From contig QHUZ01000094.1 in the NCBI GenBank assembly GCA_003223395.1, forward strand, positions 1-35,917: a DNA stretch of 35,917 nt, written 5' to 3'. The stretch's first letter is position 1. Every line of letters begins with the position of its first letter. The position numbers and the translations under genes are program-made. Under the pieces are notes generated by a model, which was given only the letters and a program-made list of their open reading frames with translations, ran no database searches and had not been told where the DNA came from. Of the stretch, positions 1-33,803 are shown piece after piece. This stretch comes from Gemmatimonadota bacterium (GTDB lineage Bacteria > Gemmatimonadota > Gemmatimonadetes > Gemmatimonadales > GWC2-71-9).

Positions 1-752
1 CCAGTATCACCGCGGACATATCCATAATTGTCGATATGTCGACGACGGTGGGGAGCTCCGCGGTGATGTCATTCAGCGTGCGCGAGTAAACACGCACCTT
101 GTCTGCGTTTTTGTGTACCTGAATCCGAATGCCATCGAGCTTGTACTCGAACGACGCCGGACCGAGCTCCGCAAGCGCGTCTTGCACATCCGTGGCCGTC
201 TTCGCCAGCATCGGCTTGATGGGGCGAAAGAGCTCGATCGCGAAGCTCTTTAAATCACCCTTGGCGACGGCGCCGAGGTTGCCGGCCAGCATCATGGCGC
301 GCCGCACGTCGCTTGCGGGGAGCTCGCGCGCTTTGGCGAGCGCCTCGACCATGATCCCCTCGAGCGCGCCTTGCCGTAGCTCTCCGGTCAGTAAGCGAAA
401 CAAGAAGTCCTGCTCTTCGGCTGTCGCGTGGGAGAACAGATCGGTGAGCAGACGCTGTTTCTCGCCGCCCGAGCCTTTGCCCGACGTCGTCGCGATCTTC
501 TCGAGAGTCTCATCGATATCGCGCAGTTGCAGGCGTGCCGACTTGCCGACGTGAGTCTTGGCCTTCTGCAGTGTTGCCCACCCGACACCGATCTTCGATT
601 GACGGATCGTGCCCGAGAGATACGCGATCGCGAGCTCGATCTCCTCGGGGCCCGCCTGCTTCAAGAGATCGGCGAGCAATGTGATTTTGGCGAGGCGGCC
701 GGACGTGGCCGCGACCTGGTTCGAAGTGGTGACGAGGACGTTCAGGAGCACG
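1..752 (-). CDS. ATP-dependent DNA ligase, LigB-like (N-terminal part; cut by window edge)
   Basis: Joins DNA nicks using ATP via a lysyl-AMP intermediate. About 250 residues are present and the C-terminal part lies beyond base 1. The N-terminal DNA-binding domain reads LLNVLVTTSNQVAATSGRLAK and continues with LSGTIRQSKIGVGWATLQ, GKGSGGEKQ and LTGELRQGALEGIM, which closely follows mycobacterial LigB. The adenylation motif I appears as EYKLDGIRIQ (lysine nucleophile), followed by VRVYSRTLNDIT. The start is fixed as GTG at 752-750: an in-frame TAG lies four codons upstream (764-762) and no other start codon falls between. The gene is divergent from the 824 gene. It could act in repair or end joining, but no Ku or polymerase partner is visible here. 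Identity is strong; full length cannot be judged. Confidence 0.93.
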
Positions 753-19755: not shown

Positions 19756-21054
19756 GTGCTTCCCTCCCTCACCGCCGCGCTCTGGCCCGCCAGCGCCTAT
19801 CGACGCGATCAGTTGCCCGAGCGCGTGCTCCAGTTCGGCAGCGGCATGCTGCTGCGCGCGCTGTGCGCGGCGGCAGTGGACGCGGCAAACCGGGCGGGGG
19901 CGCGTGCCGGTCGCATTGTCGTCGTGCAGAGCACGGCGGAAGGAGCGGCCCGCGCCCGCACCCTGAACGCCCAGGACGGCTTGTTCACCCTGGTCGAGCG
20001 CGGCCTGTCCGGCGGCGCGCCGCTCGAACGCGTTGGCCTGATCGGCGCGATCTCGCGCGCGCTCGCCGCGGACAGTCAGTGGAACGCCGTGCGCGACGTC
20101 GCGGCGCAGCCTGAGATCCAGGTGATCGTCAGCAATGTCTCGGAGGCGGGGTTCCGGATCGACGCGCCCTTCCCGGGCCGGCTGACGGATGCGCTGCACG
20201 CGCGATTCACGCGCGCACCCGCTGCACCGCCCGTGTTCGTCATCCCGACCGAGCTAGTGCCAGATAACGGCCCACGCCTGGCGGCCATGATTCACGAAGT
20301 GGCGAGGAAGTACGACAACAGCTTTCGCGCCTGGCTCGAGGCGCGCGTGCGATTCTGCTCCTCACTCGTCGACCGGATCGTCACCGCGCCGCCGCCCGAT
20401 CAGCATGCCGCGCTCGAGGCGACGCTGGGCTACCGCGACGCGTTGCTCACCGTGACCGAACCGTACGCCCTGTGGGCCATCGAGGTGGATCCCGCCGAGC
20501 TGCGGACCGTGTTTCCGATTGACAGCGCAAATGTCGTGTTCGCACCCGATATCGCGTTCTACCGCGAGCGCAAGCTGCGCCTGCTCAATGCGGTGCACAC
20601 GGCGACGGCACCGCTCGCCGCTCTGGCCGGCGTCCGCACTGTGCGCGACGCCACGCTGCATCCGCTGCTCGGCGGCTTCCAGAAACGGCTGCTGTTCGAC
20701 GAGATCATCCCCGCGACTGATATCCCGGCGGACGACGCGCGCGCGTTCGCACACCAGGTGCTCGAGCGGTTCGCTAATCCGTGGCTCGAGCACGAGTACC
20801 GCGTCATCGCGACGAATCAGGAAGAGAAGTTCCGAATCCGGGTCGTGCCGCTCATCGTTCGCCGTCCTGCACCAGGATTGTCCCTCGCCGCCGCGGCCCA
20901 CCTGACATTCACCCGGGCGCCGCTCGACGCGCTCGGCGAGGCGGCGCGCATCTCGGAATTCGCCGCAGCGACGACGCGCTGGATGGCGGTGCTGGCGCGG
21001 GACGGCGTCGAGGCGGCGCTAGCCGCGCTGACGGAGAGTGCCCGATGTACATGA
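19756..21054 (+). CDS. uxaB: Mannitol-dehydrogenase-family hexuronate reductase (UxaB-like)
   Basis: 432 residues, NAD-dependent. The nucleotide-binding start RVLQFGSGMLLRAL matches tagaturonate reductase UxaB rather than the FHRAH form of fructuronate reductase UxuB. Further blocks are FVIPTELVPDNGPRL, FCSSLVDRIV, YRERKLRLLNAVHTATAPL and RVVPLIVRR. The family Lys/His catalytic region is in KLRLLNAVHT. It overlaps uxuA by 10 bases. Sequence suggests tagaturonate to altronate, but the partner is mannonate dehydratase, so in this pathway it may reduce fructuronate to mannonate. The start is GTG 19756. Confidence 0.82.
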   Translation: MLPSLTAALWPASAYRRDQLPERVLQFGSGMLLRALCAAAVDAANRAGARAGRIVVVQSTAEGAARARTLNAQDGLFTLVERGLSGGAPLERVGLIGAISRALAADSQWNAVRDVAAQPEIQVIVSNVSEAGFRIDAPFPGRLTDALHARFTRAPAAPPVFVIPTELVPDNGPRLAAMIHEVARKYDNSFRAWLEARVRFCSSLVDRIVTAPPPDQHAALEATLGYRDALLTVTEPYALWAIEVDPAELRTVFPIDSANVVFAPDIAFYRERKLRLLNAVHTATAPLAALAGVRTVRDATLHPLLGGFQKRLLFDEIIPATDIPADDARAFAHQVLERFANPWLEHEYRVIATNQEEKFRIRVVPLIVRRPAPGLSLAAAAHLTFTRAPLDALGEAARISEFAAATTRWMAVLARDGVEAALAALTESARCT

Positions 21055-22085
21055 CGTTCCGCTGGTTCGGGCCCACCGACCCGATCCCGCTCGCGCACAT
21101 CCGCCAAATCCCCGGCGTGGAAGGCGTGGTGAGCGCGCTGTACGACGTGCCGGTCGGCGATGCGTGGCCGAGGGGCCGGCTCGCGCAGCTGCAGAATGAC
21201 ATCGCGGACGCAGGGCTCAAGCTCGCGGTCGTCGAGAGCATTCCGGTTCACGAAGACATCAAGCTCGGACGTCCCACGCGCGACCGCCTGATCGCGAACT
21301 ACTGTGAGAGCGTTCGCACCATGGGCGAGCTGGGCGTGCGGGTGCTGTGTTACAACTTCATGCCCGTGTTCGACTGGATGCGCACCGATCTCGCGCTGCC
21401 GCTGCCCGATGGATCGACCGCGCTCGCGTACGACGATGCGGCGCTCGCCCGCATGGACATCGCGCGGGGGACCGGCGATCTCCCCGGCTGGGCTGCGACC
21501 TATGATGCAACCGAGCTACGTGGGCTGCTCGAGGCGTACCGCAAGGTGCACGCGGAGCGGCTGTGGGATCACCTCGCCTACTTCCTCGAGCGCGTCGTCC
21601 CCGTCGCCGAGCAAGCGGGCGTGCGGATGGCGATCCACCCCGACGACCCACCGTGGCCCATCTTCGGGCTGCCGCGCATCATCTGCCGCGGCCGGGACTT
21701 GGAGCGACTCCTGCAGCTCGTCGACCGTCCCGCCAACGGCGTCACGTTCTGCACGGGCTCGCTCGGCGCCCTCCCCGAGAACGACCTGCCGGCGATGGTG
21801 CGGCGCCTCGGCCCGCGCATCCACTTTGCGCACTGCCGCAACGTGCGCGTCACCGGTGAGCGGCAGTTCCACGAGACGCCACATCCCTCGGCGTTGGGCG
21901 ATGTCAATCTAGCAGCCGTGCTGCGAGCATTGCGCGACACGGGCTTCGCCGGCCCGATGCGCCCCGACCACGGGCGGATGATCTGGGGCGAGCGCGGACG
22001 GCCGGGCTACGGATTGTATGACCGCGCGCTGGGCGCGACTTACCTTCAGGGACTGTGGGAAGGACTAACGACAGAAACGGGATGA
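21045..22085 (+). CDS. uxuA: D-mannonate dehydratase
   Basis: Converts D-mannonate to 2-keto-3-deoxygluconate. A 346-residue TIM barrel with UxuA hallmarks: FRWFGPTDPIPLAHIRQIPG at the start, VVESIPVHEDIKLG, LCYNFMPVFDWMRTDL, MAIHPDDPPWPIFGLPRI, VTFCTGSLGA and the metal-binding FAHCRNVRVTG followed by MRPDHGRMIWGE. ATG 21045 overlaps the uxaB-like stop, which implies translational coupling; a second ATG at 21051 is possible. It is slightly short compared with the Escherichia coli enzyme (about 394). Confidence 0.94.
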   Translation: MYMTFRWFGPTDPIPLAHIRQIPGVEGVVSALYDVPVGDAWPRGRLAQLQNDIADAGLKLAVVESIPVHEDIKLGRPTRDRLIANYCESVRTMGELGVRVLCYNFMPVFDWMRTDLALPLPDGSTALAYDDAALARMDIARGTGDLPGWAATYDATELRGLLEAYRKVHAERLWDHLAYFLERVVPVAEQAGVRMAIHPDDPPWPIFGLPRIICRGRDLERLLQLVDRPANGVTFCTGSLGALPENDLPAMVRRLGPRIHFAHCRNVRVTGERQFHETPHPSALGDVNLAAVLRALRDTGFAGPMRPDHGRMIWGERGRPGYGLYDRALGATYLQGLWEGLTTETG

Positions 22086-22121
22086 TGGACTCACGGTTCA
22101 ACTCCTCGTTGGAAACCGAAC

Positions 22122-23021
22122 TCAGCCTATCCCCGCATCTCTCAAATATCCGGCCGCCACTTTCGCATACTGCTCAATCGCGACCTCGGGCTCCTCAATC
22201 TCCGGATGCCACCGCTTCTCCCACTCGAAGCTAAAGAACCCACGGTAGCCGATCTTCGCGAGCGCCGCGATCTGCCGTTTCACGGGTACGTCACCGGTGC
22301 CGGTGAGGACATAGCGCCGGTCGGTGCCGGCGGCGACGGAGTCCTTGAGATGGGTGTGCCGGATGTAGCGCCCCAGCTGCCGCACGGTGTCCTCGGGCTG
22401 CTCTTTGCCCGACACGAAGGTGTGATGCGCGTCCCACAGCAACGCCACGTTGGGTGAGTCGGCTTTCTGGAGGATTTCGAACAGCGCGGGCGAGTCGGTG
22501 AAGTCGCCATGCGATTCGATGATCACGGTGACGTCTTTGCCGCGCGCATAATCGCCAAGCTCGTGCAGCGCGCCGCCGATGTGCGCGAGCATCTCGTCGC
22601 GTGGCACGCCGGCGACGTACTCGTTGCCGAACACGCGCACGTACGGCGCGCCGAGTGCGTGGGCGAGATCGATGAAGCGGCGCGCCTCGTCGAGCTGCGC
22701 GGCATGCTTGACCGGGTCCATGTCGTGCATCTGCGCCGACGCGCCAAGGCAGGACACGCTGAGCTCGTGCGCCGCGAGCTGGCGTCGCGCTTCGGCGATT
22801 CGCTCTGGCGCAAGCTCGGGCACCTTCGTGAGATCCATGTTCGTCAGGATGCCGCGTAGCTCGACCGACGCGAATTGCTGCTCGGCCGCAAAATCGAGGA
22901 TTCGGGGCCAAGGCCAGCTGGGGCAGCCGAGCGTGGAGAAGCCCAGAGGCAGCTTCTTGGCCGCGTGCCAAGGCAGCAGCAGCGCAGCCGCAGTTCCGAC
23001 AAACTCCCGTCGAGTGGTCAT
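22122..23021 (-). CDS. Exported sugar phosphate isomerase/epimerase (xylose isomerase-like TIM barrel)
   Basis: 299 residues. The N-terminus MTTRREFVGTAAALLLP is a Tat-like signal with RR, suggesting periplasmic export. The barrel shows LGFSTLGCPSWPWPRILDFA, SVELRGI, VTVIIESHGDF, VALLWDAHHTF, IRHTHLKDS and GFFSFEWEKRWHPEIEEPE, with the Glu/Asp/His/Glu metal ligands of the family. It is divergent from the Tat-exported oxidoreductase at 23130 and lies within the hexuronate cluster. Its substrate is probably a sugar acid or keto-sugar; this is inference. Confidence 0.85.
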   Translation of the reverse strand: MTTRREFVGTAAALLLPWHAAKKLPLGFSTLGCPSWPWPRILDFAAEQQFASVELRGILTNMDLTKVPELAPERIAEARRQLAAHELSVSCLGASAQMHDMDPVKHAAQLDEARRFIDLAHALGAPYVRVFGNEYVAGVPRDEMLAHIGGALHELGDYARGKDVTVIIESHGDFTDSPALFEILQKADSPNVALLWDAHHTFVSGKEQPEDTVRQLGRYIRHTHLKDSVAAGTDRRYVLTGTGDVPVKRQIAALAKIGYRGFFSFEWEKRWHPEIEEPEVAIEQYAKVAAGYLRDAGIG

Positions 23022-23032
23022 AGCGTCGTTCC

Positions 23033-23052
23033 TGAAACTAGCTTTTAGTTCA
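23033..23052. promoter_or_regulatory. Imperfect palindrome in divergent promoter region
   Basis: TGAAACTA (23033-23040) and TAGTTCA (23046-23052) form an imperfect inverted repeat. It lies in the 108-base gap between the divergent isomerase and oxidoreductase genes. It is a candidate operator for a sugar-responsive repressor. No matching regulator gene is in the window. Confidence 0.3.
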
Positions 23053-23129
23053 CCGTGACGCTCGACCAGTCCCGTCTTGCAGGACCACGGGGACGAAGTC
23101 TATTTCCGCAGTATCAAAGTGAGGCCACT

Positions 23130-24428
23130 ATGAAACGCCGTCGCTTCGTGAAAACCGTTTCCAGCGCCGCACTCGGACTCGTCGCGGCGCGTGCGCCGCT
23201 GTTCGGGTCAGGCTCCCCCAGCGAGAAGGTCGTGGTCTGCGTGATGGGCCTGAACGGCCGCGGGACCGTGCTGGCGAAAACGTTCGCCAAGACGCCGCAC
23301 GCCGAGGTCGCCAGTGTGTGCGACGTGGACGCCAAGGTGCTGGCCAAGGCTGCCGCAACCGTGAACGCGAAAGCCATCGCCGATTTCCGGCGCGCGCTCG
23401 ACGACAAGTCCATCGACGCGCTCGTCATCGCGACGCCCGACCACTGGCACGCGCCCGCCGCGATCCTCGCGATGGCGGCCGGCAAGCATGTCTACCTCGA
23501 GAAGCCGTGCGGCCACAACGCGCGCGAGGGCGAGCTGCTCGTCGATGCGCAGCGCAAGACACGCCGCGTGGTCCAGATGGGAACGCAGCGCCGCAGCTCG
23601 CCACGCGCCATCGAAGCCGTGCAGGCAATCCGGGACGGGATCATCGGCCGCCCCTACTTCGCCCGCGCGTGGTATGCGAACCGCCGCGCGACCATCGGGC
23701 GGGGCAAAGCTGCGCCGGTACCAACAGACTTGGATTACGAGCTGTGGCAGGGGCCGGCGCCGCGCACGCTGTACCGCGACAACGTGATTCACTACAACTG
23801 GCACTGGTTCCGCCGCTGGGGCACGGGCGAGATCTGCAACAACGGCACGCATGAGATCGACGTCGCCCGCTGGGCCCTCGGCGTCGATCATCCGGTGCGC
23901 GTCACGTCCGCGGGCGGGCGCTACCACTTCGACGACGACTGGGAGTTTACCGACACGCAGGAAGCGGCGTTCGAGTTCGACGGCGGCCGGTCGATCGCGT
24001 GGCAGGGACTGAGCTGCAATCCCTATCCCGTAGAGGGCCGCGGCCGCGGAACGATGGTGCACGGCACGACCGGCTCGATGGTGCTCGATCAGGACGGCTA
24101 CGTCGTGTACGACATGGACAACAAGATCGTGAAACAGAACGTCGCGCCTCCGCCGTCAGGCACCGATTCGCTCGCGCTGAGCGGCGACGATCAGCTCACG
24201 GCATTCCACATCGCGAACTTCGTCGAAGGCGTCCGCACCGGCGCTCCGGTCAGCCAGCCGATCGAGGAAGGCGCGAAGACCGTGCTGCTGTGCCATCTCG
24301 GCAACATCGCGCAATGGACGGGTCGCGCGCTGCGCGTCGATGCCACGACGGGTCGCATCCAGGGCGACGAGGCGGCGATGGCTCACTGGCAGCGGGAGTA
24401 CGCGCCCGGTTGGGCTCCAACAGTCTGA
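23130..24428 (+). CDS. Tat-exported Gfo/Idh/MocA family oxidoreductase
   Basis: 432 residues, NAD(P)-dependent sugar oxidoreductase. The signal MKRRRFVKTVSSAALGLVAA has the RR of a Tat substrate. The Rossmann part reads VVVCVMGLNGRGTVLAKTF and VASVCDVD, and the family EKP motif is in HVYLEKPCGHNAREG. The C-terminal domain holds HYNWHWFRRWGTGEICNNGTHEIDVARW. The start ATG 23130 has GTGAGG upstream. An in-frame ATG at 23055 would bury the Tat signal. It overlaps the uxaC frame by 19 bases, so the two are co-translated; it may act on an extracytoplasmic uronic acid derivative. Confidence 0.9.
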   Translation: MKRRRFVKTVSSAALGLVAARAPLFGSGSPSEKVVVCVMGLNGRGTVLAKTFAKTPHAEVASVCDVDAKVLAKAAATVNAKAIADFRRALDDKSIDALVIATPDHWHAPAAILAMAAGKHVYLEKPCGHNAREGELLVDAQRKTRRVVQMGTQRRSSPRAIEAVQAIRDGIIGRPYFARAWYANRRATIGRGKAAPVPTDLDYELWQGPAPRTLYRDNVIHYNWHWFRRWGTGEICNNGTHEIDVARWALGVDHPVRVTSAGGRYHFDDDWEFTDTQEAAFEFDGGRSIAWQGLSCNPYPVEGRGRGTMVHGTTGSMVLDQDGYVVYDMDNKIVKQNVAPPPSGTDSLALSGDDQLTAFHIANFVEGVRTGAPVSQPIEEGAKTVLLCHLGNIAQWTGRALRVDATTGRIQGDEAAMAHWQREYAPGWAPTV

Positions 24429-25765
24429 ACCCCGATCGCTTCTTCGACTCCGATCCAGCGATACGGCGCGTCGCGCGCGCGCTGTACGAGGAGACTCGGG
24501 GCCTACCCATCGTCTCGCCCCACGGCCACGTGGACGCGCGCATCCTCGCGGAGAACGCGCCGTTCCCCGAGCCGGCGTCGCTCATCATCCAGCCCGACCA
24601 CTACATCCTGCGCCTGCTGTACGCCAACGGCGTGCCGCTCGAAGCGTTGCTCAAGGGCGAGCCGCGCCGCGTGTGGCAGCTCTTCGCCGAGCATTATTAC
24701 TTGTTTCGCGGCACGCCGAGCGGGGCATGGCTCGACTATGAGCTGTGCGAGGGATTCGGGATTCGGGACTCGGTTTCCGGGGAAACTGCTACACGGATTT
24801 ACGACGAGATCGTCGAGAAGCTCAAGAGCCCAGAGTACCGGCCGCGCGCGCTGTTCGAGCGCTTCAACATCGAAGTGCTGGCGACGACGGACGCGGCGAC
24901 CGACAGCCTCGAGCACCATTGCGCGATCCGCGAGTCCGGCTGGAAAGGCCGAGTGATCCCGACGTTTCGGCCGGACGCGCTGTTCAAGATTTCCTCGCCC
25001 GGGTTCGACGGGCTCGGGGCGCGCGATTTCACGAGCTTCATCCGCGCGATCGCGGAGCGCCGTGTGCACTTCAAGCAGCTGGGTGCGACGGCGACCGATC
25101 ACGCGGTGCTCGAGCCGTACACTGCCGCGCTGTCCGAGGAGGAGGTCGAGCGCCTGTTTCAGCGCGCGCGGCAGGGTCAGGCGACGCCGGACGACGAGCG
25201 CCGCTTCACCGCGCACTTACTGATGGAAATGGCGCGTTTGTCGCTGGCCGACGGCCTGGTGATGCAGCTGCATGCCGGCGCGCTGCGCGACCACAACAGC
25301 CAGGTCTTCGAGCGCTTCGGCCCTAACATGGGCGCCGACATTCCGGTGGCGACCGAGTTCACGCGCAACCTGCGGGCGCTGCTCAATGCCTACGGCAACG
25401 ACCCGCGGTTCACGCTCGTGTTGTTCACGCTGGACGAATCGACCTACAGCCGCGAGCTCGCGCCGCTCGCTGGCCACTACCCCGCCGTGCGCCTCGGCCC
25501 CCCGTGGTGGTTCCACGATTCGATGGAGGGCATGCGGCGCTTCCGTGAGCAAACCACCGAAACGGCGTCGATCTACAAGACCGCCGGGTTCAACGACGAC
25601 ACGCGCGCGTTCTGCTCGATCCCTGCGCGGCACGATCTGGCGCGACGCATGGATGCGAATTTCTTGGGGGGCCTGGTGGCGCGCCACATGATCGACGAAA
25701 GCGACGCGCGGCGCATGGCGCGGGCGCTGGCATATGAGCTGGTGAAGAAGACGTACCGCCTCTAG
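24410..25765 (+). CDS. uxaC: Glucuronate/galacturonate isomerase
   Basis: Isomerises D-glucuronate to D-fructuronate and D-galacturonate to D-tagaturonate. 451 residues; family blocks are LNPDRFFDSDPAIRRVAR, PIVSPHGHVDARILAEN (metal-binding HGH), NIEVLATTDAATDSLEHH, VIPTFRPDALF, DGLVMQLHAGALRDHN, GADIPVATEF, GPPWWFHDSMEGMRRFREQ and ARHDLARR near the end. TTG 24410 is the best start: it overlaps the preceding gene by 19 bases, and no ATG or GTG lies nearer the conserved N-terminus. Confidence 0.94.
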   Translation: MGSNSLNPDRFFDSDPAIRRVARALYEETRGLPIVSPHGHVDARILAENAPFPEPASLIIQPDHYILRLLYANGVPLEALLKGEPRRVWQLFAEHYYLFRGTPSGAWLDYELCEGFGIRDSVSGETATRIYDEIVEKLKSPEYRPRALFERFNIEVLATTDAATDSLEHHCAIRESGWKGRVIPTFRPDALFKISSPGFDGLGARDFTSFIRAIAERRVHFKQLGATATDHAVLEPYTAALSEEEVERLFQRARQGQATPDDERRFTAHLLMEMARLSLADGLVMQLHAGALRDHNSQVFERFGPNMGADIPVATEFTRNLRALLNAYGNDPRFTLVLFTLDESTYSRELAPLAGHYPAVRLGPPWWFHDSMEGMRRFREQTTETASIYKTAGFNDDTRAFCSIPARHDLARRMDANFLGGLVARHMIDESDARRMARALAYELVKKTYRL

Positions 25766-25772
25766 GGCGGCG

Positions 25773-25803
25773 GATCTGCTTTGCCGGCGCTCGACAGCAG
25801 ATC
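25773..25803. terminator. Possible bidirectional hairpin terminator
   Basis: A perfect 8-bp stem, GATCTGCT (25773-25780) and AGCAGATC (25796-25803), with a 15-base GC-rich loop, lies between the convergent uxaC and TPR-barrel genes. There is no strong T-run on either side, so this is a moderate to weak call. Confidence 0.4.
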
Positions 25804-27724
25804 AATCAAGCGCCCACCGCAACGACATCGTCGCCGAGACGTAGCGCCATTGCGCCGTGGTCGCAACCTCGTTCGCGAATGCCGATTGCTCGCCGTCGAA
25901 CTCGAGCCGGAGATCGCGCCCCACCGCGAGCGGCACGACGATGAGTGAGTACAGGCGCAACGCGCGGCCCCATGGGCCGATGGTCGCGCCTTGCTCAGCG
26001 ACGCGCTGCACCCCCGCCCCGATGTCGAAGACCAACAGGATCCCCTGTGCAGTTTCGAACTCGAGGTACGATCCCGCCTGGGCGACTTGGACCAGACGTG
26101 GCGCGAAGTAGCCGGCGGTCGTCGAGTGAGCGAAGCGAATGGTGTGGAACTGGGCTGACACCTCGACGCTCGGCGTCACAGGAACCGCCACCATCCCGGC
26201 GAGCGTCGTCCGATGATTGACCTCAGCGGAGTCGCTGAGGGCCACCGTGCGACCAATCCCCCGCAGCTTGAAGACGCGGGCGACGGGCAGTTCGACCGTG
26301 GCGCCGAGCTCCGTTCGCAGCACACGGTTCGCCGCAAGCAACGGGGTCGCGTCCAGGAGGTCTCGCCGCGCTCTCAGGTCGACGATCGGCCCCGCCCCGG
26401 GAACTCGCCAGCGCGCCCGCAGCTGGCCCGTCGGCAGGATCGTCGCACTCCGTCCAGCGACGGCATCGAGCCGGCTCGCTCCACCGCTCGCTTGGACTTG
26501 CCACGCCGCTCCGGGCCGCCACGCCGCGCCCAAGGTGAGGTCTTGGCGGCCGGTGGTCGTCACGCCATCCTCGATCGCCGTCCGGCTCGCGGTCAGGCCG
26601 AACCGCATCGGTCCCCAAGACGCGATCTCACCCGTACCGCCCAGCCGGAGTGTGGTGTTGCCGTCCGAGTCGTGAGTACCGCTCGCGAGGGGCGTGATCG
26701 CGGCCGCGGCTGCCGCTCGCGCCACGGCGAGTCGCCGGGCAACAGTCGGGTCCGGCGCAATCGCCTGAGCACGCTCGAATGCTAGGGCCGCATCGCGCTC
26801 CCGACCCTGTCGCAGCCGTTGGCGCGCCAGCTCGCCCCATGCCTCCGCGTCACTGGGGTTCGCGTCGAGCCAGTGCCGATAGTCAGCGACGGCAGCATCG
26901 GTGTGCCCCGCGCGAGCGAGGACCCGCGCCCGACCGATGACGGCGTCGCGCTCGTCGGGCGCGAGCCGGAGAGCATCATCGTACGAGCGCAACGCGTCAC
27001 CGTAACTGCCAGACCGTGCGAGGGCGTCGCCCAGGGCCATGTAGCCCCATGGATCGGACGGCTCCAGGGCGACGTAGCGGCGGAACAACTGGAGCGCACG
27101 GGCCGGGTCACCCCGCTTGCTCAGGTCGGCGAGACGATAGGTCGCGCGCGAGTTCTCAGGATCGACCGCCAGCGCTGCCGCGTACTCACGCTCGGCCGAT
27201 GTCGCATCTCCTGCCGCAAAGGCGGAGTCCGCTCGGGCGAGACGGCGAGCGAGCGCGCTGGTGTTCTGTGCGGCCACCGTGTGCGTCCCGTCCGCCGCCA
27301 CGGCGAGCACGACGAGTACCGCCACCCTCGTGATCGGTATTTCCGCACCGCGCTCAAGCCTCGGCCCCGTCTCCCGATGGACCCACAGGCGCAGCAGCTC
27401 GACGCCAAGGAGAACCGCAGCGAGGGTCGCGGCAGAGAGCACGAGCGCGGCCGTGCGCAATACGTTTCCCGGGTGCGCGCCCGCGAGCAGATGGGGTGGA
27501 CGAACGATGGCGGCGGATGCGGTGATCGCGATCCCTACGAGCCACCCCGTCACCCATATGGCGGCGAGGATCGCGCCGGCCATGGCAGTCTGCCCTGCAA
27601 CGATGCGCCACCCAGCCGACGGGCGACGTCGTAACGACCGATACGCCTGGCGGAGCGGCATGGCGAGCGCGCTGACCAAATAGAACATCCCGCCGATCCC
27701 GGTCCCCGGCACGCCAACTGTCAT
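25802..27724 (-). CDS. PgaD-like membrane domain fused to TPR and outer-membrane barrel (PgaA-like)
   Basis: 640 residues. Two hydrophobic helices lie at about 46-74 and 88-114, the size and layout of PgaD. A third hydrophobic stretch at about 132-152 (VAVLVVLAVAADGTHTVAAQ) looks like an internal signal sequence ending in AAQ. TPR repeats follow to about residue 330 (DSAFAAGDATSAEREYAAAL, EPSDPWGYMALGDALARSGSY, YRHWLDANPSDAEAWGELAR). The rest is strand-rich and ends YVSATMSLRWALD, as in an outer-membrane porin such as PgaA. ATG 27724 follows the glycosyltransferase stop by one base. Likely role: assembly and export of the polymer made by the upstream enzyme. Confidence 0.8.
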   Translation of the reverse strand: MTVGVPGTGIGGMFYLVSALAMPLRQAYRSLRRRPSAGWRIVAGQTAMAGAILAAIWVTGWLVGIAITASAAIVRPPHLLAGAHPGNVLRTAALVLSAATLAAVLLGVELLRLWVHRETGPRLERGAEIPITRVAVLVVLAVAADGTHTVAAQNTSALARRLARADSAFAAGDATSAEREYAAALAVDPENSRATYRLADLSKRGDPARALQLFRRYVALEPSDPWGYMALGDALARSGSYGDALRSYDDALRLAPDERDAVIGRARVLARAGHTDAAVADYRHWLDANPSDAEAWGELARQRLRQGRERDAALAFERAQAIAPDPTVARRLAVARAAAAAAITPLASGTHDSDGNTTLRLGGTGEIASWGPMRFGLTASRTAIEDGVTTTGRQDLTLGAAWRPGAAWQVQASGGASRLDAVAGRSATILPTGQLRARWRVPGAGPIVDLRARRDLLDATPLLAANRVLRTELGATVELPVARVFKLRGIGRTVALSDSAEVNHRTTLAGMVAVPVTPSVEVSAQFHTIRFAHSTTAGYFAPRLVQVAQAGSYLEFETAQGILLVFDIGAGVQRVAEQGATIGPWGRALRLYSLIVVPLAVGRDLRLEFDGEQSAFANEVATTAQWRYVSATMSLRWALD

Positions 27725-27725
27725 C

Positions 27726-28751
27726 TCAGTGCCCCTTCTCGTAGACGTGCAGCGAACGACCGAACACCAGCTCGGCGCACACCGCGCGGAGAAAGAACAC
27801 CGCGTTGACCGTGCGCAGCACGAAGAAGGCCGGAACGCTCGCCAGCGCCCGGAGCACTTCCCGGCGTCGCGTGGCGCCGACCAACACCGGCACCAGCACG
27901 ACCGGTGCATCGATCAGATAGCCGAGCAGCACCCAGGGGCTCTTGAATGCGAGAGCGAGGAGGGGGAGCAGCACCAGATACAGCGCCGCCGCAATCGTCG
28001 CGTCCCAGAACGCCACCGCTACGGCGGAGCGGAGAAACGGCACACGGAGCAAACCGCGCCAGTGCAGCATCACGTTCTGGACGAAGCCGTGCGACCAGCG
28101 GCGCAACTGCTTCCCCATCAAGCGGAAGGTGTGGGGCTCTATCGGATAACACACCGCCTCAGGGACGAAGTGCACCTCATGGCCGGCCTGGTAGAACGTC
28201 CAGGTCAAATCCATGTCCTCGGCGAGCGTTCGGTCGGACCACCCCTGCTGCGCCCGCAGCAGCGCCGTCCGGTAGATCGAGAAGCACCCCGAGGAGATCA
28301 GCGGCTTGCCGTAGCACTCCTGCACCTGCTTGTAGTAGGTGAACGCGAACAGGTACTCGATGTACCGCCCGCGCTCCCAGATGCTGCGCACGTGGCGCGG
28401 CAAAACCAATCCGCACGCCGCCGCCACGCGCGGTCGGTCGAACACCGGCAGCAGGCGTTCGATGGCGTCGGGGGCGAGCACGGTATCGGCGTCGATGGCG
28501 GCGGTGAACGGGGTGCACACGTACCTGAGCCCGAAGCTCTGGGCTCCCGCCTTGGAGCCGGTGTTGGTCGGAGGGCGAACGACGGTGACCCCCAGGGCGC
28601 GCGCCACGCCGCCGGTTCCATCGGTGGAGCAGTCGTCCACGACGATGATCTCACGCGGCGGCGCGGTCTGCGCCTGCAGGCTGCGGATCGTGTCCGCCAC
28701 GCTCCCTGCCTCATTGTAGGCGGGGACGATGACGGTAAGGTCAGCGGTCAC
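27726..28751 (-). CDS. Processive family 2 glycosyltransferase (PgaC/BcsA-like)
   Basis: About 341 residues from GTG 28751; GTG 28799 would add 16 unconserved residues. The GT-A domain begins LTVIVPAYNEAGSVADTI, with DDCSTD, the metal-binding DAD (residues 87-89), the catalytic ED in TLAEDMDLTW (178-179) and the QLRRW motif (215-219) of processive beta-glycan synthases. C-terminal membrane helices follow (AALYLVLLPLLALAF, VLLGYLIDAPVVLVPVLVG). PgaC makes poly-N-acetylglucosamine, but the polymer here cannot be named. It is followed directly by a PgaD/PgaA-like fusion, so synthesis and export are encoded together. No PgaB-like deacetylase is adjacent. Confidence 0.92.
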   Translation of the reverse strand: MTADLTVIVPAYNEAGSVADTIRSLQAQTAPPREIIVVDDCSTDGTGGVARALGVTVVRPPTNTGSKAGAQSFGLRYVCTPFTAAIDADTVLAPDAIERLLPVFDRPRVAAACGLVLPRHVRSIWERGRYIEYLFAFTYYKQVQECYGKPLISSGCFSIYRTALLRAQQGWSDRTLAEDMDLTWTFYQAGHEVHFVPEAVCYPIEPHTFRLMGKQLRRWSHGFVQNVMLHWRGLLRVPFLRSAVAVAFWDATIAAALYLVLLPLLALAFKSPWVLLGYLIDAPVVLVPVLVGATRRREVLRALASVPAFFVLRTVNAVFFLRAVCAELVFGRSLHVYEKGH

Positions 28752-28900: not shown

Positions 28901-30922
28901 ATGCGTCTCTCCTCACTCGCCCGGGTCGCCGGGCTGCTCGTGCTGGCCTCGTGTATCGCTCCCGTGGATACGGACCAGGCAGTCGGTCCACTCTCGCTCT
29001 CGGTCGTGTCCGGCAACAACCAGAGTGGACCACCTGGGACCGAGTTGCCGAATCCGCTCGTCGCGCTCGTGGAGGACTCCCGCGCCCACGCCGTGAGAGG
29101 GCAGATCGTCAATTTCGTCGTGGTCTCGGGCGGCGGCAGTGTATTCGCAGGTGCCGCGATTACCGGCGCCGATGGCATCGTGCAGGAGCGCTGGACCCTC
29201 GGCGCTTCGGGACCGCAGCGCGTCGAGGCGCGCGCGATCGATACCCAGACGGGCGCAAAGCTCACCTTCGCGAGCTTCGACGCGACGCTGACCGACGTAC
29301 AGGCACCGGTCGTGTCCGAGGTGGCCACGTCGCCGACCGCTCCGGTCTCAGGCAGCCCGTTCGACCTGACGGCAGTCGTGAACGACGCCACTACGGGCGG
29401 CTCGAACATCGCGGGGGCGACCTACGCGGTCGATGGCGGTCCGCCGGTCGCGATGGTCGCGCAAGACGGCGCGTTTGATGAGCCAAGCGAAGCGGTGCGC
29501 GCCACCGTGTCGCCGTTCGCGGCCGGCGGTTCGCACACCTTCTGCGTGACCGGCAGAGATGCCGCCGGCAACGTGAGCAGTCCGAGCTGCATTACGGTGG
29601 TCGTCACCGAGGACGCGATTTACGTCAGTCCCGCGGGCGACGATGCGGCGAACGGCACGCGGGCCGCGCCGCTCAAGACCATAGGTGCGGCGCTCGCGCT
29701 GGCCGGCACATCTGGTAAGAACAGAGTAAATGTCGCGCAGGGCACCTATCCAGAGAATGTGCAGCTGCGCGCAGGGGTCAGTTTGTACGGCGGCTACGAG
29801 GCCGCAACCTGGACGCGCGCACCGGCGACGTTCGTCACGACGATTGGACCCGGACCATCCACTTCGGCCGTTGCCGTGCAAGGCGACAACGTGACGGGAG
29901 TGACCGTCGACGGCTTCAGCATCCGGAGCGGCGACGCGATCGGTCCCCGTGAGAGCGCCTACGGGATGGTGTTGACCAATAGCGTGGCGACGATCTCGGG
30001 CAATCACATCATCGCGGGCAACGGCACCGCGGGCACCGACGGCTTCATTGGTTTCCCAGGACAGGATGGTATCGCCGGTCTCGACGGACAGCCGGGGTCG
30101 GCGAACGGACCCGAAGGTGACGGCGGTTTTGAGAGATCGCTCGTGTGTCTCGGCTCCACACTCATCGGTGGCGCCGGTGGGGCGGGCGGAGCGCCCGGCG
30201 CGGTGGGCCAAGATGGCGCGCCCGGCAACTCGCCCAACGGCGGCAATGGTGGAACGGGTGGACTCGGCGGCGCGACACCCCCGTTACCCGCTGGCGAAAA
30301 TGGGCAGGACGGCTTCGCCGGGATCGCTGGAGCCGCGGGATCGGGCGGTGACTCCTTTGGAGGCTTCTCTAGCTTCGGCGTCTACGTCCGGGCGGATGGC
30401 TCTGCTGGAGTGTTGGGCCAACACGGCGGCGGTGGCGGCGGCGGCGGTGGGGGTGGCGGGCTCGACCCCACGGGCGGCGGCAATGGTGCCGGTAGTGGTG
30501 GCACCGGTGGCTGCGCCGGGACCGGCGGTGGTGGTGGCAGGGGCGCCGGCGGCTCGTTCGGCATCGTCGGCGTGCTCTCGACGTTGACCATCACCGGCAA
30601 CACGATCGAGACGGGGAACGGCGGTGCCGGCGGTGCGGGTGGCAGCGGCGCGGCGGGTGGTGCCGGCGCCGCTGGTGGCCTCGGTGCGACGAACGATGCG
30701 CCGCAAGTCGGCGCCGGCGGCAACGGCGGCGCGGGTGGCAACGGCGGTGCGGGCGGTCCGGGCGGCGGCGGTGGTGGTGGGCCCAGCATTGGGATCGTCT
30801 CGCAGGGAGGAACGCTCGCGCAGGCCGGCAATGTGTTTGTGCTTGGCACTGGTGGGACTGGGGGAACATCACCCGGCGGGAATGCGGGCACCGACGGACT
30901 GCGGACGCAGATTCGTAACTAG
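28901..30922 (+). CDS. Lipoprotein with Ig-like, beta-helix and PE_PGRS-like glycine-rich regions
   Basis: 673 residues. A lipoprotein signal ends in LLVLASC (Cys18). Next is a Big_1-type Ig domain (SVVSGNNQSGPPGTELPNPL), a second Ig-like domain (about 135-235, ending HTFCVTGRDAAGNVSSPSC), and a DUF1565/right-handed beta-helix start (IYVSPAGDDAANGTRAAPLK). From about 370 to the C-terminus the sequence is GGxGGxGG-rich, like mycobacterial PE_PGRS tracts, interrupted by beta-helix turns (SYGMVLTNSVATISGN-like blocks, GVLSTLTITGNTIE). It is a surface or extracellular structural protein and probably Ca2+- or polysaccharide-associated; binding is inference. It has a strong SD and is divergent from the exopolysaccharide genes. 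Confidence 0.85.
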   Translation: MRLSSLARVAGLLVLASCIAPVDTDQAVGPLSLSVVSGNNQSGPPGTELPNPLVALVEDSRAHAVRGQIVNFVVVSGGGSVFAGAAITGADGIVQERWTLGASGPQRVEARAIDTQTGAKLTFASFDATLTDVQAPVVSEVATSPTAPVSGSPFDLTAVVNDATTGGSNIAGATYAVDGGPPVAMVAQDGAFDEPSEAVRATVSPFAAGGSHTFCVTGRDAAGNVSSPSCITVVVTEDAIYVSPAGDDAANGTRAAPLKTIGAALALAGTSGKNRVNVAQGTYPENVQLRAGVSLYGGYEAATWTRAPATFVTTIGPGPSTSAVAVQGDNVTGVTVDGFSIRSGDAIGPRESAYGMVLTNSVATISGNHIIAGNGTAGTDGFIGFPGQDGIAGLDGQPGSANGPEGDGGFERSLVCLGSTLIGGAGGAGGAPGAVGQDGAPGNSPNGGNGGTGGLGGATPPLPAGENGQDGFAGIAGAAGSGGDSFGGFSSFGVYVRADGSAGVLGQHGGGGGGGGGGGGLDPTGGGNGAGSGGTGGCAGTGGGGGRGAGGSFGIVGVLSTLTITGNTIETGNGGAGGAGGSGAAGGAGAAGGLGATNDAPQVGAGGNGGAGGNGGAGGPGGGGGGGPSIGIVSQGGTLAQAGNVFVLGTGGTGGTSPGGNAGTDGLRTQIRN

Positions 30923-31625: not shown

Positions 31626-33803
31626 ATGCGTCGATCCGTGCTCGCCGGTCTCGCCGCGCTGATCCCAGTCGCCGTACTCGCGCAGGCCAATACGGGAGGT
31701 CCGCCGGCGACGCCCGTCCGTGTCGTCAACGACACCATCTTTGGCACCGTCGTCCCTGATCCCTATCGTTGGCTCGAGAACGTGCAGGACAGCGCTGTCC
31801 TCCAATGGTTGCACGCGCAGGATAACTATACCCGTCATCTCCTCGCCGCGATTCCCGGCCACGCCGACCTGGCGGCGCGGATTCACGCGCTCTCGAATGC
31901 CAATCCGTCGATCAGCGCGCCAAATTTTGGTGGGAAGCGCCTGTTCTATTTCAAGCGGCTCCCCGGCGAAGAGGTCAACAAGCTCTATGTGCGCGACAGC
32001 CTCGGCGCCCCCGAGCACCTGCTCGTCGATCCCGAGCGGCTGCAGCAGGCAGGCGGCCCGCACTGGGCGCTCGACTACTACTCCGCGTCGTGGGATGGCC
32101 GCTACGTCGCCTATGGCGCCTCGCCGGCCGGCTCGGAGAACAGCATCATGCGGATTCTCGACGTGACGACCGGCAAACTGCTGCCCGATTCGATTGACCG
32201 TGCGCAGTTCGGCGGCCCGTCGTGGCGACCGGATGGCCGGGCGTTTTTCTACAACCGGCTGCAGAAGCTGCCGCCCGGGGCGCCGACATCCGAGAAATAC
32301 CGCAACAGTCGCATTTACCTGCACACGGTAGGACAATCCGACACGACCGACGTCCCGCTCGTCGGTCTCGGCGTGATGCGCCGCATCCCGCTCGAGCCGG
32401 ATGACATCCCCTTCATGAACACGATTCCGGGAACCGCGTGGGCGTTCGCCACAATCGCGCATGGCGTGCAGAACGAGGTCACCGCATACGTCGCGCCGCT
32501 GGCCGATGTGCGTGACTCGACCACGGTGTGGCGGCCGCTGATCGCGCCGACCGACAGCATCGTGCTGTTCGACGTGCACGGTGACGACATCTATCTGCTT
32601 TCGCACCTCCATGCAGCGCGCTACAGGGTGTTGCGCACCAACCTGAAGAGCCCCGACGTGGCGCACGCGGCGGTCGTCTTCCCCGAGTCGCAGGGCGTGG
32701 TGGTGGTCTTCGGCACCTCGCGCGACGGGCTGTACATCAAGACCTTGGACGGTGGGTTGGGGCGCCTGTTCCGTCTCGCGTGGGGCGCGGCCCCCCCCGC
32801 TGCCCAGCCGGTGGCGCTGCCGTACGATGGCGCGATCAACAGCTTCAGCACCATACTCTCCCGCGATGGCGCGCTCTTCTCACTCGAATCGTGGACCCAT
32901 TCGCCGCTGTGGTTTGCGTCCGATCAGAAGACCGGTCACTTGACGGACACCGGTCTGCTGCCCGTGTCGCCGGTGGATTTTTCGGCGATTAAATCCGAGG
33001 AAGTGCGCGTGCGGGCACCCGACGGCACGATGGTGCCACTGTCGATCGTGCATCGCCGCGATGCCAAGCAGGACGCCAGCCATCCGCTCTATCTCGACGG
33101 GTACGGCGCCTACGGGTTCACGTACGATCCTTATTTCGGTCCCGCCTGGCTCGCGTGGTTCGAGCAGGGCGGCGTGTATGCCGTGTGTCACGTGCGTGGC
33201 GGCGGCGAGTTCGGCGAGGCGTGGCACCAGGCCGGTCGCGGCCCGACGAAGTCGAATACGTGGCGCGATCTGATCGCGTGCGGCGACTATCTCGTGGCCC
33301 AGAAGTGGACGTCACCGGCGCGACTCGCCGGCAGCGGCACGAGCGCCGGCGGAATCGAGATCGGGATGGCGGTCACCGAACGCCCGGAGCTGTTCGGGGC
33401 CGCCCTGCCGCGCGTCGGCACGCTCAATCCACTCCGGGAGATGCTGGTCGGCGTCAGCGGCCCCGCGAATCGTCCGGAGTTCGGCGATCCCACGACCGCC
33501 CAGGGCGCGCGCGAGTTGTTGGCGATGGATACGTAGCAGCACGTGAAGGCGGGGACTGCGTACCCGGCGATGTTGTTCACGAGCGGGTTCAACGATCCGC
33601 GCGTGGACACGTGGATTCCAGCGAAGACGGCGGCGCGTTTCCAGGCCGCGACCACGAGTGGCAAGCCGGTGTTGCTCCGCGTCGAGTTTGATGCCGGGCA
33701 CGGGTTCGGCTCGAGCATGTCGCAGCGCGAGGCTGAACTGGCCGATGAGTGGTCATTTTTGTTATGGCAGTGTGGCGTGCCGAAGTTTCAGCCGGTGCCG
33801 TAA
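31626..33803 (+). pseudogene. Prolyl oligopeptidase (S9A) interrupted by an in-frame TAG
   Basis: Codons 1-636 encode a secreted S9A peptidase: signal MRRSVLAGLAALIPVAVLAQ, the N-terminal block VVPDPYRWLENVQD, the propeller, then VHVR-type GGGEFGEAWHQAGRG and the nucleophile AGSGTSAGGIEIG. A TAG at 33534-33536 follows ELLAMDT, where relatives usually have an aromatic residue before HV. The same frame then continues for 88 residues with the rest of the catalytic triad: Asp in TSGFNDPRVD and His in FDAGHGFG. The stop therefore removes two of three catalytic residues. No other damage is seen, so it is a recent nonsense mutation, a sequence error or readthrough. Total size about 725 codons, normal for the family. 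Confidence 0.85.

Follow-up and report, generated by a model that had tools for sequence, protein, structure and literature searches.

Separate genes encode the partner of the polysaccharide synthase and the outer-membrane pore in both the pga and the bcs system. The synthases themselves, when they are processive GT2 enzymes, are recognized by a signature of D, DxD, ED, and QxxRW. A bacterial precursor cut at an internal signal peptide is exemplified by the fbcH cytochrome b/c1 polyprotein of Bradyrhizobium, which resembles the protein described here in having such a peptide and differs from it in belonging to a respiratory complex rather than to an exporter.

Fusions of neighboring secretion parts, comparable in this respect to the present case, are known in polysaccharide operons and include BcsAB, BcsZC, and GT-PgaB, although none of these, in the accessible portion of the source (PMC7112194), joins a synthase partner to an outer-membrane pore. 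PelB carries a membrane anchor, TPRs, and a barrel in one chain, and the accessible part of its description (PMC12141448) reports a TPR scaffold of more than 20 nm and proposes that an uncleaved N-terminal helix, said to have no cleavage site, bridges both membranes. In AlgK, according to the portion of text available, 9.5 repeats measure 70 Å (PMC9384988). Our literature search itself, with subscription papers mostly outside its range, returned no report of a partner-porin fusion or of a bacterial internal-signal polyprotein.

Results

Organization of the locus

The window, the whole stretch of 35,917 nucleotides analyzed here, comes from the 3.41 Mb draft genome of a soil bacterium of the Gemmatimonadota. 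An earlier note on this DNA had placed a 640-residue ORF behind a PgaC-like synthase gene, and our coordinates agree with that placement (Table 1).

Table 1. Features of the synthase and fused genes in the window, with the basis of each assignment
Feature	Residues	Position	Strand	Remarks or basis
Fused gene		25802-27724	-	640 aa; ATG 1 base past GT stop codon
GT2 processive-synthase-like gene		27726-28751	-	341 aa; GTG start
Partner domain	1-118	27371-27724	-	GVPGTGIGGMFY start; alignment, AlphaFold2, hydropathy
Partner-domain helices	10-31, then long helices 39-74 and 85-118			AlphaFold2
Variable linker	119-130	27335-27370	-	low pLDDT
Internal signal-peptide-like segment	131-152	27269-27334	-	run VAVLVVLAVAA; c-region end VAA
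Proposed signal peptidase I site	A152^Q153	27266-27271	-	[AG]^Q in 13/13 fused loci; cutting inferred
TPR domain	157-339	26708-27256	-	11 helices (5.5 repeats); Pfam, AlphaFold2, structure matches
16-strand beta-barrel	341-639	25808-26704	-	AlphaFold2, structure matches

The locus is adjoined by a UxaC gene and by a gene for an Ig-like/Gly-rich protein. Annotation of these direct neighbors revealed no adjacent deacetylase gene, as had been noted before, and the five PF01522 matches in the genome all lie on contigs other than that of the locus, which, with no PgaB-type deacetylase in it, falls outside the definition of a PNAG (pga) operon. Among the genes listed around the gemmatimonad loci, no non-synthase gene is shared except within small clusters of two to four.

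Several features of the surroundings may be recorded. A hexuronate catabolism cluster (window 19756-25765) adjoins the fused gene and comprises a mannitol-dehydrogenase family protein, UxuA, a sugar-isomerase-like gene, an oxidoreductase, and UxaC. The 673-residue product of 28901-30922(+), a gene divergently placed upstream of the GT gene, begins like a lipoprotein, has a weak Ig-like (Big_1) stretch that stays below the cut-off, and is very rich in Gly in its C-terminal part. Within 31626-33803(+), a prolyl oligopeptidase ORF ends early inside its Peptidase_S9 domain, and 33543-33803 holds a further ORF, in a different frame, that resembles the C-terminus of that enzyme; the gene may be broken or the sequence in error.

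The synthase and its constant partner

The gene directly upstream of the fused gene was rightly described as PgaC-like: Pfam finds GT2 domains in its product, and the best NCBIfam model is PgaC_IcaA (TIGR03937), whose score of 114.5 bits lies far below the cut-off of 422.3 and falls short of family membership. Profile comparison with PgaC by hhalign gave 29% identity over 231 columns at a probability of 99.7. In an alignment of 23 of the 34 GTs, drawn from several phyla, the motifs VDD, DAD, ED, and QLxRW (QLRRW in the window) are retained, with D39 D40, D87/D89, E178 D179, and Q215/R218/W219 invariant, and the enzyme is thus predicted to be processive. Its AlphaFold2 model (pLDDT 88.8) is nearest to the synthases of hyaluronan, cellulose, and chitin and to comparable GT2 enzymes.

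The catalytic domain and motifs are those of PgaC (IcaA), but the GT has no N-terminal membrane helices. In E. coli PgaC, the catalytic domain is preceded by two hydrophobic segments and followed by three, of which the GT of the window keeps only those that follow. No segment upstream of the catalytic domain reached the hydrophobicity threshold of 1.5 in any of the 33 loci scanned (maximum 1.38, in L103), L045 having been excluded because its GT is cut by a contig end. The GT lies directly upstream of the partner in 34/34 loci, and across the 395 genomes sampled, the 14 with a GT match at E<=1e-40 are precisely the 14 with the partner (Fisher p 5e-26, a value that ignores relatedness). Since the GT lacks N-terminal membrane helices, those of the partner may take their place.

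The partner was previously called PgaD-like, a designation that PF13994, NCBIfam, Pfam, and hhalign all fail to support. PF13994 (PgaD) has no match at E<=1 in the window's genome and is absent from the 23 families found for the 33 partner sequences, while NCBIfam and Pfam return nothing above cut-off on the partner. Homology to E. coli PgaD was considered and rejected, its hhalign probability being just 0.6, and so was homology to the N-terminal helices of PgaC, for which hhalign paired a 20-residue stretch of the first helix at 40% identity but again with a probability of only 0.6. Sequence searches at E<=0.001 retrieved no solved structure for either the partner or PgaD, and the VIA and Foldseek match lists scarcely cover residues 1-130; in the AlphaFold2 model, the N-terminal part forms two or three membrane helices. 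The partner resembles PgaD as a small helical membrane protein encoded after the synthase gene, but differs from it in showing no detectable sequence relation and in having a conserved start motif of its own, residues M1, G4, P6, G9, G11, G12, F14, Y15, P23, and W39 being invariant in 33 sequences. On sequence grounds, the partner is a family of its own without a curated model.

The TPR-barrel part, a probable exporter

The TPRs and the outer-membrane barrel suggested by the earlier note are both borne out, the former by Pfam matches and 11 AlphaFold2 helices, the latter by 16 strands in the AlphaFold2 model and by structural matches. The model of the fused protein, computed from an input of 28 rows of partner or fusion sequences, has a mean pLDDT of 86.2. 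The solved structures closest to the TPR-barrel part are BcsC (Z 25.8), PgaA (Z 25.4), and PelB (Z 24.6), and these matches (6tzk, 4y25, and 9h80) place it in the class of TPR proteins with a 16-strand barrel; Foldseek also matches it to these exporters. By sequence, the PgaA model (TIGR03939) scores 32.5 bits against a cut-off of 366.65, below membership, with its best stretch at residues 229-343 in the TPR part. Likewise, hhalign of the fused profile against PgaA aligned the TPRs alone (probability 22), so that the link of the barrel to these exporters comes from structure.

As in PgaA, BcsC, and PelB, a TPR domain is followed by a 16-strand barrel, but here the TPRs number only 5.5, and a partner domain for the inner membrane and then an internal signal come before them. 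L044 and L045 show a 64-column gap in the TPR region, indicating still fewer repeats. The barrel is probably a channel that exports the polymer.

Recurrence of the fusion

The full fused protein was searched in 151 genomes, in which the GT-partner locus occurs in that of the window and in 10 others, and a search with the partner domain across the phylum found it in 14 of 395 genomes. After exclusion of nine of the 28 listed loci (L059-L061 and L063-L068), whose contigs equal in length contigs already counted, the gemmatimonad loci total 16, including L062, one additional record. As the contig of L103 ends inside the partner at the junction, 15 loci can be read as fused or split.

In 13 of these 15 (the window, L038-L042, L044-L046, L062, and L100-L102), partner, signal, and TPRs are fused in one frame; the TPR-barrel part of L041 contains an N-run, and both L046 and L101 are cut by contig ends. 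The remaining two, L043 and L047, consist of two overlapping genes each. The second gene of L047 (L047:8594-9577) has a TTG start overlapping the stop codon of the first and encodes a barrel relative with an ordinary signal peptide at its start and zero TPRs; that of L043 encodes a signal peptide and TPRs. In both split loci, the ordinary N-terminal signal peptide sits where the fused loci have the internal segment. The homologues do not consistently have two ORFs, the pattern by which a frame or stop error in the window might have been recognized, and the fusion sought in other genomes was found in 12 further loci.

The linker, measured from the end of the second partner helix to the proposed cleavage site, has 10 distinct lengths in the 13 fused loci, all of them in frame and free of stop codons (0/13). 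When the bases of the linkers were shuffled, a mean of 6.0 of the 13 loci acquired a stop, and only 1 of 2000 sets was stop-free. In close pairs, the linker evolves faster than the flanking domains, and that of L044/L045 shows no excess of silent changes. On the GT tree, the fused and split states require two changes, and the pairing of the split loci L043 and L047 has a support of 65/14, a result that fits an ancestral split as well as a later re-splitting. The recurrence in 12 further loci, the in-frame linkers of 10 lengths, and the stop-free frame argue that the fusion of a membrane partner to a TPR-barrel protein through an internal signal is real and due neither to chance nor to local error.

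A conserved cleavage-like site

AlphaFold2 predicts a short helix at residues 131-143 with flanking residues below a pLDDT of 50, confidence at the signal being low in general (pLDDT 41-53 in blocks 121-150). In all 13 fused loci, a hydrophobic run 8-17 residues long precedes [AG]^Q, and position -3 is small or aliphatic under a search rule that admitted A, G, S, V, T, L, or I; the -1 residue is Gly in L038. All 13 thus have the features of a signal peptidase I substrate, the cleavage itself being predicted, and Q153 is invariant in an 8-row alignment, unlike the linker. The internal segment of the window itself is a weak signal: its n-region has a net charge of 0 over the ten residues preceding the hydrophobic run, as in L101.

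The flanks of the partner helices are Arg-rich before 39-74 and after 85-118, which points to a cytoplasmic C-terminus of the partner, the right side for starting a signal peptide. Because [AG]^Q is kept in 13/13 fused loci and the corresponding segment of the split relatives is a true N-terminal signal, we propose a cut at A152^Q153.

GT-partner pairs outside the gemmatimonads

Eighteen loci (L069-L086) come from outside the named gemmatimonads, one from Omnitrophota, one recorded only as "bacterium", and the others from planctomycetes. Their partner is a free-standing gene of 117-178 aa, and their GT is 55-68% identical to that of the window. Among the neighboring genes listed, no barrel relative stands beside the GT-partner pair in any of the 18, and five such genomes searched whole with the fused profile gave matches only to the partner and to TPR-like stretches. 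The ancestral role of the pair need therefore not be secretion across the outer membrane. As a separate observation, L075 and L077 are two records of one Planctomycetia bin with two different GT-partner copies.

Discussion

Gene structure, a conserved frame, constant GT-partner pairing, fold matches, and a conserved cleavage-like site characterize this locus; the polymer, the topology, the cleavage, and the export are inferred. In the reading that we consider likely, the pair of genes encodes a compact apparatus for polysaccharide synthesis and export, in which a fused precursor is cut into partner and exporter in equal amounts. The GT2 enzyme would polymerize sugar at the cytoplasmic face and thread the polymer through the inner membrane, where the partner domain would join it, probably providing the N-terminal membrane helices that it lacks. 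The second gene would be translated as a single precursor, whose partner domain would insert with its C-terminus in the cytoplasm and whose internal signal peptide would launch a new export event. Signal peptidase I would then cleave after Ala152, and the freed TPR-barrel would reach the outer membrane and serve as exit channel. With one precursor cut into both products, the fusion would mainly keep partner and exporter equal in amount.

The earlier note had put forward a single chain spanning both membranes, with cleavage as the alternative; our results favor the latter. If the chain stayed uncut, it would bridge the two membranes and hold the synthase to the exit channel in the way proposed for PelB. 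Its layout, with a membrane anchor at the N-terminus and then TPRs and a 16-strand barrel, is that of PelB in the accessible part of the PelB report, and residues 126-144 of the window protein exceed a crude membrane-helix threshold (KD 1.89). However, the N-terminal helix of PelB is said to lack a cleavage site and its scaffold exceeds 20 nm (PMC12141448, as far as accessible), whereas the 11 TPR helices of the window protein, at 7-9 Å per repeat and with about 13 unfolded residues, would reach less than 100 Å by an estimate of size, and the repeats are fewer in L044/L045 and missing from split L047. Such a bridge is accordingly unlikely; the conserved cleavage-like site in 13/13 loci, the short hydrophobic run, and the presence of only 5.5 TPRs make cleavage into two products the likelier outcome. 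The chain might also stay whole and its short TPR spring draw the membranes together locally, one molecule then coupling synthase and exit pore, a rather improbable arrangement in which the fused partner would supply the synthase's missing N-terminal helices.

Two products might alternatively arise in translation, by re-initiation at an internal start before the signal, with the fusion only partly used. An in-frame GTG with an SD-like stretch lies near the signal in four of the 13 fused loci (L042, L044, L045, and L062), and the overlapping genes of the two split relatives suggest coupled translation, but nine, including the window, have no such start, and the frame is open in 13/13 across 10 distinct linker lengths, making this quite improbable. 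A further possibility, that the glycan made by the GT and its partner is lipid-linked or belongs to the wall and that the barrel is an unrelated outer-membrane protein recruited by chance, would fit the 18 pairs without an adjoining barrel relative. We give it little credence, as the TPR or barrel part is fused in 13/15 readable gemmatimonad loci and the next gene in the other 2/15, and its fold is that of known synthase-linked exporters. An assembly or base error joining two real genes, a notion to which the two genes of L043 and L047 might lend color, is refuted by the 12 further loci in other assemblies and has practically no chance of being correct.

Cleavage of one precursor into partner and exporter thus remains our preferred reading, and a fusion of partner and pore with a maintained internal signal offers a natural test of the balance between parts that reside in two membranes. 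The most useful by-product is the partner itself, a family that lacks a curated model, accompanies a single GT2 lineage, and occurs in at least three phyla. The N-terminal membrane helices of the synthase, seemingly supplied by another chain, provide a testable idea on how a synthase channel is built.
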